From: Parvularcula sp. LCG005
GTDB taxonomy: Bacteria > Pseudomonadota > Alphaproteobacteria > Caulobacterales > Parvularculaceae
Assembly: GCF_032930845.1 (NCBI RefSeq)
Contig: NZ_CP136758.1
Coordinates: 914,501-978,500 of the forward strand
Length of the DNA: 64,000 nucleotides
Reading direction: 5' to 3'
Shown: piece after piece, positions 30,601 to 34,564 of the stretch
Layout: the number at the start of each line of letters is the position of its first letter
Numbering within the stretch: position 1 is the first letter of the stretch
Notes under the pieces: model-generated
What the model saw: only the letters and a program-made list of their open reading frames with translations
The model's database searches: none
Told to the model about the DNA's origin: nothing
Position numbers and translations under genes: made by a program

Positions 30601-30940
30601 CGACCCCATATTTGTGCAGGACGCCGGAATTGGCCAGCTCCAGCGCACAGTTGAGGGCGGTCTGGCCCCCCATGGTGGGCAAAAGCGCGTCCGGGCGCTC
30701 AATCTCGATGATCTTTTCGACGAATTCAGCCGTGATGGGCTCGATATAGGTGGCGTCGGCCATCTCCGGATCGGTCATGATCGTGGCCGGGTTGGAGTTC
30801 ACCAGAATGACGCGGTAGCCCTCTTCTTTCAGGGCCTTCACCGCCTGTACGCCGGAATAGTCAAACTCACAGGCCTGACCAATGACGATGGGGCCGGCGC
30901 CGATGATGAGGATGGACTGAATATCGGTACGTTTCGGCAT
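27638..30940 (-). CDS. carB: carbamoyl-phosphate synthase large subunit
   Basis: Makes carbamoyl phosphate for pyrimidine and arginine synthesis, with ammonia supplied by the CarA subunit. The 1,100-residue length is normal. It has two ATP-grasp halves: the first begins [20 protein letters not shown] and the second repeats it at [21 protein letters not shown]-terminal MGS-like allosteric domain contains [19 protein letters not shown]. carA is not adjacent; separation of carA and carB is normal in this class. greA is 86 bases downstream. Confidence 0.98.
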
Positions 30941-31342
30941 GGTCGCTTTTCGATTCTGATCTGACGGAGGCGCAAATTGCCGGGGGTCTACAGAGGTCAG
31001 ACTTCCATATCAAGGATAATGAGGTCGTGAATTTCACGCAAATTGCACGCGCGCCTTCACTATTATGCCGTATGCGAATGAAAACGACATATTGGGCGAA
31101 GGATGACAGCGGGAGGGTAGCGCATGCCGCCCGCCATGGCGCAGCTTTTGGTTGCGGTTGAAACAGTCGCCTCAATCCGGCGGCTTTACCCACCGTGAGG
31201 CGGTATCCCTTGATTTGTCTGACTATTGCCGGTTGGTCCGGACGCAGTGTCAATTCGAAAATCATTCAAATTGTCGATGTTACCGCAAACGGCTGTTCAG
31301 GGCGTTCGGATAGGGTGTCCGAAAATAAAGGGAGATTTTGGG
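30941..31342. other. 402-base divergent intergenic region between carB and the hybrid kinase
   Basis: No plausible gene is seen. It must hold the carB promoter and the promoter of the hybrid kinase. One perfect 13-base inverted repeat, CGTGAATTTCACG, lies at 31026-31038, about 90 bases upstream of carB. The right third is AT-rich. The strong GGGAGA ribosome site of the kinase gene is at 31330-31335. Confidence 0.5.
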
Positions 31343-34300
31343 GTGGCGCACAGAGTGGTACTGGCTGATATCAGCCAATCGGTATGCCGACTAGCGTCCA
31401 TGGCGAGCCATGGCGATGATCGACCTGTGTTTTACGCCAGTCGTGAAATGCAACGCGGCGACTATGCCAATTTCTACGATATGCTTGAGGCCTATCTGTC
31501 CGAGGGGGACGATGATGCCTGGGTGAAGGCCGTCGCCATCTCGCTGCAGGGTCCTGTCTATGGCGACGTCGTGCGCCCGCTGCATACAGATTGGGTGATT
31601 GACCGGGCCGAGCTGACATCGCGCTTTGGAATCGATCACTTTGTGGCCATGAACAACATTGCGGCGATTGCCTCAGCGATTCCGTGGCTGGATGAACGTG
31701 ACGCCATTCACATGGGCGGGGCCTGCGCCGCGCAATCTCTCGACCTCGACAATGGCCGGTTCGGTGTCATCGGACTGACCGCCGGCATGGGTGTAGCTGC
31801 GCTGAAATGTGATAGCGGTAACGTCAGTATCATCGATACGGAGTCTGGACACACAGCGTTCGCGCCACAAGATGATCTTCAGTCACAGATCGTTGCCCGG
31901 CTGCGGTCTCGATTTGGTTTCATCTCCCGCGAAGACATTCTGTCCTTTTCCGGGATCGAACGGATCTATGAGGTCTTGAGCGAGCTTGAAGGCGACCGTC
32001 CGGCAACGCTGACCGCGCTTGAAATCCTGATGTACGGCAAGACAGATGCTGATCCGCTCTGCCGGAAGACGCTTGATGTCTTTTTTGACGCGCTCGCCAG
32101 CATTGCGGGCGACATCTGTCTTGAGCTTTGTGCCAAGGACGGTGTTTTTCTGTACGGCGAGATCGTCAGCCGCGCCCTGGATGCGCTGCCGCAGGACCGA
32201 TTCCGTACGTTGTTCGAGGACAAAGGCAAATTCGGTGTCTTTGTGGCGTCGACGCCGACACTCGTCATGCAGAACCCAAGCACCGGCCTGATTGGTCTTG
32301 CCCGTCAGGTTGCAGAATCCATCGCGACGCTGGAAGCCGGACGGTTGAACCAGAGCCAGCATATGCGTGCCGCGTCGCGTTATCTGGATCAGTCGCTAAC
32401 CGTCATCAATCAGGATTTGCAGCTCGTCGCGATGTCGCGAGAAAACTGGTATGATCTGCCCCAGGACAAATCGCTGGTTCTGCCTGGCACGCCTGCTCTT
32501 GACTACTTCACCGCCCTTGAAACGGCCGGGCAGTTTGATGGTCACATCACAGCCGACGACATCGTGGCGAAGCTGAAATCAACCGAGCCGTTCATGTTCA
32601 AACGTTTTGTGTTTGGCAGTCGCGTTCTGGAATGCAAAGCTTACCCGACCCCTGAGGGCGGTTTTGCCATTGTGGAAACAGACCGTACCGAGATGGAACG
32701 CCGGACGATCGAGCTTGAAGAACTGGCGATCCGCCTGCGGTCGGAGAAAGACCGGTCCGACTGCGCCAACCGCGCCAAGTCTGAATTTGTCGCGAATATG
32801 AGCCATGAAATCAGAACGCCGCTGAATGGCGTTCTCGGCATGGCAGACGTTCTGAGCCGGACACCGCTTGAATCCGGTCAGAAGGAAATGCTCGACGTCA
32901 TTTCCAATTCTGGCAACGCCCTCCTGACCGTCATCAATGACATTCTCGATTTCTCCAAGATCGAGGCAGGCAAGATGCGCCTGCAGGAACAGCCAATGCA
33001 TCTGCGCGTCTGTGTAGACGACGTGGCGGCGATGCTGGCGGCAGGCTGTGAAGCCAAAGGTGTTGAACTGATGACGCGCTTCCGGCCATCCACGCCGGAA
33101 TGGGTGATCGGTGACGCTGGCCGGATCCGCCAGGTGATGACCAACCTTCTGGGCAATGCCGTCAAGTTTACACAGTCCGGACACGTCCTTCTGGATATTT
33201 CCGGTACGGCGGAGGGCCCCCACGCGGAGTTGCAGATCGATGTCACCGACACCGGTTGCGGTATTCCGGAAGACAAGCTCGAGGCCATCTTTGGTTCATT
33301 CGAGCAGGTCGATGGCTCATCGACCAGAGTTCATCAGGGCACGGGCCTTGGCCTGTCGATCACGCGCCGGATCGTCCAGCTCATGGGCGGCAATGTCACG
33401 GTGACGAGCACGGTGGGCAAAGGTTCGACCTTCAGTGTCCATCTGCGCCTGCCGCTCGCCGAAGAAGCGGCGCAATCGGCCGAGCCTATTCCGCTCGGTG
33501 ACCTGAAGGGCAAGACGGTGCTCGTCGTTGACGACCAGCCGGTCAATCGCGCCATCCTGAAAGAGCAGCTTGGCGCATGGGGTGTGGACACATTGCTTGC
33601 GGAAAGCGCCAAGGCAGGGCTCGAAATCCTGCGCAAGGCTGCAAAATCTCATGAGGCGATCGACGCTGCTATTCTCGATTATCAAATGCCGGACACGGAC
33701 GGTATCGCCCTGGCGCGGGACATCAAGGCTGACCCGCGTATTTCCGGTCTGCCGTTAATCCTCCTGACCTCCGTTGGCAATGTGGTCGACAATCCTGAAT
33801 GCGACGATCTCGATTTCAAGTCCTGCCTCGTAAAACCGGCACGGTCAGAATCACTGCGTCAGGCGCTGCAATCCGCGGTGTCACCGCACTATGCCAAGGA
33901 AAATGCTCTGGCCAGCCAGGAGACACCCGCGACGGACGATGTCCCAGCCCCTGTGGCCGCCGAGAAGGCACCCCTCATGCTGACCGCCGAAATCGAGGAC
34001 AATGCGACCGCTGACGCTGAGCCGTCCACGGCGCCAGCTTCTGCCGATATGCCTGCGCCGGCGAAATTGAAAAGCGTGGCGGACGAGATGCGCCGCAAAG
34101 CGCCGGATGCTGTCCGTGCCGCGCTGCACCGGTCACAGAAGAAATCGGCGAAACCGGCCGCTGGCGAACCCCTCCGTGTCCTGATTGCTGAGGACAATGC
34201 CGTCAACCGTCTCGTCATCAAGGCGATGCTCGATCCTGCACAGTACGAACTCCGCCTGGCCGTCGATGGTGAGGATGCGGTGGCACAGTTTATCGATGAG

Positions 34301-34564
34301 ACGCCAGACGTCATTCTGATGGACGTATCCATGCCTGCGCTGGATGGTCTGTCTGCGACCCGGAAGATCCGCGGCATTGAGAAAGATCACGGAGCCGGGC
34401 GGACGCCGATCATCGGTCTGACAGCCCATGCGCTGCCCGAAGATCGCCAGAACTGCATCGATGCGGGGATGGACGGTTATCTGACCAAGCCGGTCACCAA
34501 GGAACGCCTCGAAGAAACGATCTCACAGGTGCTTCAGCGGGACGGCGCGCGCGCCAGCGCCTGA
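31343..34564 (+). CDS. hybrid histidine kinase with N-terminal degenerate glucokinase domain
   Basis: This 1,073-residue cytoplasmic protein has no signal or membrane segment. Residues 1-322 align along their length with bacterial Glk: GDYANFYDMLEAYLSE, GPVYGDVVRPLHTDW, GHTAFAP and RTLFEDKGKF all have counterparts. But the ATP motif DxGGTN reads DISQSV (9-14), the second phosphate loop reads GLTAGMG, and the catalytic Asp is Asn105 (MNNIAA). Sugar-binding Glu167, His170 and Glu197 appear kept. Then follow PAS_7-like (345-450), a helix, HisKA (His488, SHEIRTPLNG), HATPase (N605, DTGCGIP, GTGLGL), REC1 (Asp779, Lys831), a linker and REC2 (Asp994, Lys1049). The start is GTG with GGGAGA seven bases upstream. 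Confidence 0.9.
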   Translation: MAHRVVLADISQSVCRLASMASHGDDRPVFYASREMQRGDYANFYDMLEAYLSEGDDDAWVKAVAISLQGPVYGDVVRPLHTDWVIDRAELTSRFGIDHFVAMNNIAAIASAIPWLDERDAIHMGGACAAQSLDLDNGRFGVIGLTAGMGVAALKCDSGNVSIIDTESGHTAFAPQDDLQSQIVARLRSRFGFISREDILSFSGIERIYEVLSELEGDRPATLTALEILMYGKTDADPLCRKTLDVFFDALASIAGDICLELCAKDGVFLYGEIVSRALDALPQDRFRTLFEDKGKFGVFVASTPTLVMQNPSTGLIGLARQVAESIATLEAGRLNQSQHMRAASRYLDQSLTVINQDLQLVAMSRENWYDLPQDKSLVLPGTPALDYFTALETAGQFDGHITADDIVAKLKSTEPFMFKRFVFGSRVLECKAYPTPEGGFAIVETDRTEMERRTIELEELAIRLRSEKDRSDCANRAKSEFVANMSHEIRTPLNGVLGMADVLSRTPLESGQKEMLDVISNSGNALLTVINDILDFSKIEAGKMRLQEQPMHLRVCVDDVAAMLAAGCEAKGVELMTRFRPSTPEWVIGDAGRIRQVMTNLLGNAVKFTQSGHVLLDISGTAEGPHAELQIDVTDTGCGIPEDKLEAIFGSFEQVDGSSTRVHQGTGLGLSITRRIVQLMGGNVTVTSTVGKGSTFSVHLRLPLAEEAAQSAEPIPLGDLKGKTVLVVDDQPVNRAILKEQLGAWGVDTLLAESAKAGLEILRKAAKSHEAIDAAILDYQMPDTDGIALARDIKADPRISGLPLILLTSVGNVVDNPECDDLDFKSCLVKPARSESLRQALQSAVSPHYAKENALASQETPATDDVPAPVAAEKAPLMLTAEIEDNATADAEPSTAPASADMPAPAKLKSVADEMRRKAPDAVRAALHRSQKKSAKPAAGEPLRVLIAEDNAVNRLVIKAMLDPAQYELRLAVDGEDAVAQFIDETPDVILMDVSMPALDGLSATRKIRGIEKDHGAGRTPIIGLTAHALPEDRQNCIDAGMDGYLTKPVTKERLEETISQVLQRDGARASA

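Follow-up and report, generated by a model that had tools for sequence, protein, structure and literature searches.

The stretch of Parvularcula sp. LCG005 DNA analysed here (64,000 nt; the window) belongs to a 3.08-Mb genome in a single contig. Between carB, which encodes CPSase domains, and a gene with a metallo-beta-lactamase fold (Lactamase_B), it carries a gene whose product joins a degenerate glucokinase to a hybrid histidine kinase (Table 1). No response regulator gene is a neighbour. The frame is open from 31226 to 34564 and gives, from a GTG at 31343, a single intact gene of 1073 codons. This GTG had been proposed as the start in the first-pass annotation, which was made from the sequence alone. 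It is supported by a GGGAG 8 nt upstream, and a matching start is possible in all four fused relatives of the gene. A scan of 30900-31360 found neither a promoter nor a terminator.

Table 1. Features of the fusion gene in the window and positions of the stand-alone degenerate glucokinases
Feature	Position	Strand	Basis
Whole gene: degenerate glucokinase - PAS_7 - HisKA - HATPase_c - REC - REC, 1073 aa	31343..34564	+	ORF and Pfam
GGGAG, probable Shine-Dalgarno sequence of the GTG at 31343	31330..31334	+	sequence; 8 nt upstream of start
Sensor domain (degenerate glucokinase), residues 1-333; Pfam match 7-323	31343..32341	+	Pfam, predicted structure
DISQSV replacing the ATP-phosphate motif DxGGTN, residues 9-14	31367..31384	+	alignment
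Asn104, retained counterpart of the sugar-contacting E. coli Asn99; Asn105 in place of E. coli Asp100	31652..31657	+	alignment; PMC13133996 (excerpt)
Glu167-Ser-Gly-His170 (Glu and His are E. coli Glu157 and His160), kept in 9/9 degenerate domains	31841..31852	+	alignment
Glu197, counterpart of E. coli Glu187; retained here and in 6/9 degenerate domains	31931..31933	+	alignment
PAS_7 domain, residues 348-453	32384..32701	+	Pfam, 28.7 bits vs. cut-off 27
HisKA, residues 478-543; phospho-accepting His488 (codon 32804-32806)	32774..32971	+	Pfam
HATPase_c, residues 590-704	33110..33454	+	Pfam
First receiver domain, ~721-845, Asp779; extent from a weak PF24896 match	33503..33877	+	Pfam
Second receiver domain, residues 946-1060, Asp994	34178..34522	+	Pfam
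Stand-alone degenerate glucokinases of G010, G011, and G017	L037:8705-9724, L009:1498-2565, L039:6168-8275		

The kinase part was evaluated using Pfam, which matched HisKA with His488, HATPase_c, and two Response_reg stretches with Asp779 and Asp994 in one chain. This is the complete hybrid kinase that had been described from the sequence, with the same three phosphorelay residues. No Hpt domain was matched by Pfam in the window protein. In addition, the most hydrophobic 19-residue segment (1.62) lies inside a glucokinase helix, and values stay below 1.8 throughout the five fused proteins, in agreement with the earlier statement that a membrane segment is absent. As far as the sequence indicates, the window protein combines a glucokinase-fold domain devoid of the ATP-phosphate motifs with a complete and probably cytosolic hybrid histidine kinase.

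The first ~320 residues had been likened to E. coli Glk, and the Pfam Glucokinase profile (PF02685) bore this out by matching residues 7-323 (1.4e-60, 205.4 bits vs. a cut-off of 22.1, profile positions 2-311 of 314). The gathering cut-off is passed along the whole domain, which places it in the glucokinase-fold family. The window protein falls below both NCBIfam glucokinase equivalog cut-offs (150.9 of 225.45 for TIGR00749 and 183.3 of 383 for NF001416), and three sequence marks of a functional glucokinase, DxGGTN, the GTG-loop Thr, and the catalytic Asp, are missing from it. An AlphaFold model of the sensor domain, a check that had been suggested with the original observation, had a pLDDT of 81 and a pTM of 0.80, and its best VIA structure match was glucose-bound 1sz2. 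The other four AlphaFold models scored only 55.6-71.9. The last helix of the window model spans residues 314-332.

Nine degenerate domains (five fused and four stand-alone) were aligned with 61, later 68, ordinary glucokinases. GGTN as a whole is lost from all nine: the first Gly is kept in one, the Thr and the Asn in none, compared with 61, 60, and 52 of the 61 ordinary enzymes. The GTG-loop Thr, present in 56 of the 61, is likewise kept in 0/9; the position is Ala in the window protein and Ser in one stand-alone copy, as it is in four ordinary glucokinases. The alignment thus agreed with the reported DISQSV, the altered second phosphate loop, and Asn105 at the catalytic position, but not with the weight that had been put on the Asp-to-Asn change. 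The equivalent of Asp100 is replaced in only two of the five fused domains and three of all nine, being kept in the other six, and therefore its replacement does not define the degenerate group. In this alignment, the mark of the family is the loss of GGTN and of the GTG-loop Thr. Among the 68 ordinary glucokinases, 39 alignment columns reach a conservation of 93% or more; of these, 13 are kept in at least eight degenerate domains and seven in at most one. Three of these seven (positions 11, 13, and 144 of the window protein) belong to the phosphate motifs, and the other four (81, 106, 202, and 315) lie elsewhere. Moreover, Arg139 (9/9), Tyr231 (8/9), and Asp165 (7/9) are common in degenerate domains and rare in ordinary glucokinases, which hints at a new constraint besides decay.

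The sugar pocket presents a mixed picture. We take Glu157 to be a glucose contact in E. coli Glk, and the TN loop is presumably placed beside the sugar, by likeness to other hexokinases. Excerpts of two reports list Asn99, Asp100, His160, and Glu187 as glucose contacts in E. coli Glk (PMC13133996) and residues 157-160 among those shifting near the site (PMC12312565). The equivalents of Asn99, Glu157, and His160 are retained in all nine degenerate domains. Glu167, His170, and Glu197 had been noted as retained in the window protein; the alignment agreed and extended this to Asn104, although Glu197 is kept in only 6/9 degenerate domains. The TN-loop Asn, present in 67 of the 68 ordinary glucokinases, is lost in 9/9 and replaced by His in five, including His81 of the window protein, and the invariant Gly at position 202 of the window protein is kept in none. 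The changes of the TN-loop Asn and of this Gly speak against a plain glucose site. Sugar sensing as such has against it the loss of the TN-loop Asn, the losses of Glu187 and of Asp100, each in 3/9, and the four lost columns outside the phosphate motifs. As a separate observation, the ordinary glucokinase of one host genome (L106, G058:C51) carries Gln where Glu157 is conserved in the others.

Degenerate glucokinases without an attached kinase occur once in G010, once in G011, and twice in tandem in G017. One stand-alone pair (L008/L009) gave a dN of 0.087 and a dS of 0.62. An ordinary Glk is co-present in 8/8 genomes hosting a degenerate domain; that of the window genome lies at C1:1906135-1907058. 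An SRP54 (ffh) gene adjoins the stand-alone copy in G010, and an SRP54-like gene, identified by reading, lies near the G017 copies.

The fusion architecture was found in five of the 62 family genomes: the window genome (G000), G053, an uncultured Parvularcula (G058), and Parvularcula dongshanensis (G051), which share one genus code, and Amphiplicatus metriothermophilus (G001), which has another. Both Amphiplicatus and P. dongshanensis belong to Parvularculaceae. Glucokinase, HisKA, HATPase_c, and two receivers stand in the same order in 5/5 fused proteins; PAS_7 was matched by Pfam in four, over the cut-off in two. Identity among the five is 30-44% in the sensor and 58-70% in the kinase core, and the faster divergence of the sensor could reflect different ligands or weak constraint. 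In overlapping wider samples, the fusion was found only in four of the same five genomes (order, 249 genomes, E up to 1e-25) and only in the window genome itself (class, 385 genomes, E up to 1e-45; phylum, 398 genomes, E up to 1e-57). One further glucokinase search covered matches scoring better than the fusion, and its frames longer than ~521 residues were opened. Furthermore, a scan of an 84,980-species collection with one peptide pattern, with records near the window left out, returned 23 stretches and three relatives, all from Parvularculaceae or labelled Parvularcula. The fusion is likely absent outside these relatives.

Among 70 glucokinase-like domains from 97 loci, a non-random set derived from searches, only the five fused ones run into a kinase (truncated by the locus boundaries at 492-662 residues), whereas no more than 16 residues follow in the remaining 65. 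Three long frames considered as fusions (G079, G206, and G313) were rejected: each stops right after the glucokinase and owes its length to upstream read-through. Thirteen of 20 further long frames, taken from the order, class, phylum, and additional glucokinase searches, stop within 13 residues of the glucokinase, and seven have 285-320 extra residues that are RpiR-like by reading; none of the 20 has a histidine kinase tail. In a plasmid collection, 61 records matched, all at less than 60% identity, and the annotated features of the 20 matches listed were glucokinase or none.

The origin of the fusion was assessed with two trees. In the sensor tree (nine degenerate and 61 ordinary domains), the degenerate domains form one set apart (100/99). 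Inside it, G051 splits first on a long branch, and the remaining fused domains cluster with the four stand-alone copies (98/81); the branch with 97/87 support marks off the stand-alone set rather than the fused one. Since the stand-alone copies fall inside the fused set, the free tree needs two changes for the fusion. Forcing the five fused domains into one clade was 1.18 log units worse and not rejected (p-AU 0.401), and a single origin is therefore neither shown nor rejected by the sensor tree. In the kinase-core tree, the five fused proteins form one group (98/95), and in both trees G051 branches off first and G001 second, leaving the other three. Nine further genomes of the 62 hold the closest kinases without the fusion (E up to 1e-88), which are hybrids of ~1030-1280 residues. 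The five read out have two to four hydrophobic N-terminal segments, compared with none in the five fused proteins. The three examined with Pfam carry several PAS domains, followed by the same PAS_7-HisKA-HATPase_c end. The fusion probably arose once in Parvularculaceae, when a degenerate glucokinase was joined to the PAS_7-HisKA-HATPase-REC-REC part of a multi-PAS kinase; this donor would have had hydrophobic N-terminal segments, as do kinases in several genomes of the family. The simplest account is a single fusion event after which both halves diverged together, whether or not the stand-alone copies later lost their kinase.

Gene neighbourhoods were also compared. carB also adjoins the fusion in G058, and seven of the nine other places fetched have recognisable carB and Lactamase_B genes flanking differing contents; the pieces fetched from G056 and G057 showed carB only. 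The interval (window 30940-34534; L112-L120) holds an AsnC-type regulator and a LysE-type gene in G050, Polysacc_synt and Wzy_C genes in G052, and the fusion in the window and G058. It is thus a variable slot and tells little about the function of the fusion. In A. metriothermophilus, the fusion adjoins a LacI-type gene within a sugar-use cluster (L035, L090, and L091) that encodes xylose isomerase, xylulokinase, a TRAP permease, mannonate dehydratase, glucuronate isomerase, aldose epimerase, a mannitol-dehydrogenase-family protein, a TonB-dependent receptor, a sugar porter nearest XylE, and glycoside hydrolases of GH3, GH9, GH10, GH43, and GH115. This cluster is one for glucuronoxylan use. 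It also contains tryptophan-halogenase genes. The fusion neighbours in G053 and G051 did not resemble sugar-use genes by reading. Of the four neighbourhoods compared outside the window, only that of A. metriothermophilus clearly concerns sugars, which weighs against sugar sensing. GH10 xylanase was considered as a correlate of the fusion and set aside: it occurs in 10 of 14 genomes tested, including four of the five with the fusion (three matches in the window genome), and also in some relatives without it, which gives no clean link.

The protein is likely, as the best explanation of these results, a soluble hybrid histidine kinase with a pseudo-glucokinase input that senses an intracellular sugar or sugar derivative. 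That pocket residues are selectively retained argues for ligand sensing rather than decay, and the window kinase probably reports the sugar level inside the cell. The sugar-controlled phosphorelay put forward in the first-pass annotation is supported in part: the joining of a pseudo-glucokinase to a kinase is real and the retained pocket residues favour a ligand, but the pocket is altered, with the TN-loop Asn lost in 9/9 and Asn105 in the window protein. The underlying observation was right and stronger than it had been stated, and among the available interpretations sugar sensing is the best. The likeliest ligands are monosaccharides or uronates (glucose, xylose, or glucuronate, for example), with no proven order among them, and naming glucose would be a guess. 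Because the pocket is altered and the one informative neighbourhood, that of Amphiplicatus, concerns xylan and uronic acids, xylose, glucuronate, and a phosphorylated sugar are serious alternatives.

The sugar or derivative would bind in the cleft without being phosphorylated, and the cleft would close as in E. coli Glk, in which glucose brings the small and large domains together (PMC12312565 and PMC13133996, in excerpts). PMC12312565 lists the last helix of E. coli Glk with the small domain and describes a dimer interface of large-domain elements. As the last helix of the window sensor leads straight into the PAS region and kinase, ligand-driven closure could strain the linker in a dimer that the large domains hold together, and the movement would reach the HisKA dimer by way of the PAS domain. 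This movement may set the kinase/phosphatase balance at His488 and the relay to Asp779, with onward transfer through an unlinked phosphotransfer protein and Asp994 as the second receiver. The phosphotransfer partner and the response regulator must be encoded elsewhere.

In a more specific form of this proposal, which we regard as possible but doubtful, specificity has changed: the TN loop and the catalytic Asp are remodelled while Asn99, Glu157, and His160 stay fixed, and a non-glucose sugar (xylose or glucuronate from xylan) is bound. The proteins would then form a cytosolic family of polysaccharide-use sensors that run a phosphorelay, with the first sugar-kinase-derived input domain of a histidine kinase to our knowledge, and the stand-alone copies would be related sensors acting without a fused kinase.

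Two other roles of the domain are each unlikely. It could be a dimerisation or protein-docking module without a small-molecule ligand, the signal entering through PAS. Histidine kinases need dimers, some pocket residues are lost, and the PAS_7 region is common to non-fused sister kinases, though Pfam sees it in only four of the five fused proteins. E. coli Glk itself dimerises through large-domain elements (PMC12312565, in part). A pure scaffold, however, gives no reason why Asn99, Glu157, and His160 are kept in 9/9 domains and the phosphate motifs are not, and degenerate copies without an attached kinase exist. Alternatively, the domain could bind a phosphorylated sugar or phosphate instead of free sugar and report glycolytic flux. 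In E. coli Glk, an anion site adjoining the glucose uses His160 (excerpts of PMC12312565 and PMC13133996), which is kept in 9/9, and the His replacing the TN-loop Asn in 5/9 could meet an anion; the loss of phosphate-loop residues argues against this role.

A working sugar kinase that needs no DxGGTN and couples phosphorylation to signalling is very unlikely. The catalytic Asp is indeed kept in 6/9 degenerate domains, including three of the five fused, but it is Asn in the window protein, GGTN and the GTG-loop Thr are kept in none, the TIGR00749 and NF001416 cut-offs are missed, and every host genome has an ordinary Glk. Long chance frames do arise in GC-rich DNA, and many of those opened elsewhere were such, but an assembly error or read-through joining two genes, which had been named as a possible refutation, is ruled out by the same fusion with the same domain order in five genomes, at 30-44% sensor identity and with kinase cores that group together.

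Most known sugar-responsive two-component kinases detect sugars outside the cytoplasm; within the cytosol, sugars are usually sensed by repressors. If the preferred reading, a pseudo-glucokinase that feeds sugar sensing into a kinase, is true, a pseudo-enzyme as phosphorelay input would be another route from a metabolic enzyme fold to a sensor. It would also offer a kinase module for sugar sensing in which Asn104, Glu167, and His170 are evident targets for point mutation, and the ordinary Glk in the same genomes makes the divergence from enzyme to sensor directly testable.

The first-pass annotation knew of no described system of this kind, and no description of a glucokinase-histidine kinase fusion was found among the matches listed in titles and abstract openings of the open PMC literature. 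E. coli-type glucokinase (Glk, PF02685; 1q18 and 1sz2) differs in having the ATP-phosphate motifs and Asp100 and in not being fused to a histidine kinase. The ROK regulators (Mlc and Lmo0178) answer to sugars, but their output is DNA binding; ROK is not among the seven Pfam families matched at E up to 1 in the window protein, and the likeness is one of fold alone. TorS/BarA-type hybrid kinases share HisKA-HATPase_c-REC-REC, present here with His488, Asp779, and Asp994. The window protein misses both equivalog cut-offs (TorS, 441.8 of 676.5; BarA, 427.8 of 890) and differs in that no membrane segment and no Pfam Hpt match were found. The bifunctional glucokinase/RpiR-type regulator (NF010701) also joins PF02685 to a regulatory protein and matches the sensor half of the window protein (149.8 of 920 bits). 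Its partner, however, is a transcription factor (HTH_6-SIS) instead of PAS_7-HisKA-HATPase_c-REC-REC, and the copies read largely have the phosphate motifs, unlike the window domain. Pfam identified Glucokinase-HTH_6-SIS in one sampled genome (G860, L103:2234-4066), and seven further long frames have similar tails by reading. The G860 fusion has Asn at the catalytic Asp (Asp100) position and DxGATY in place of DxGGTN.
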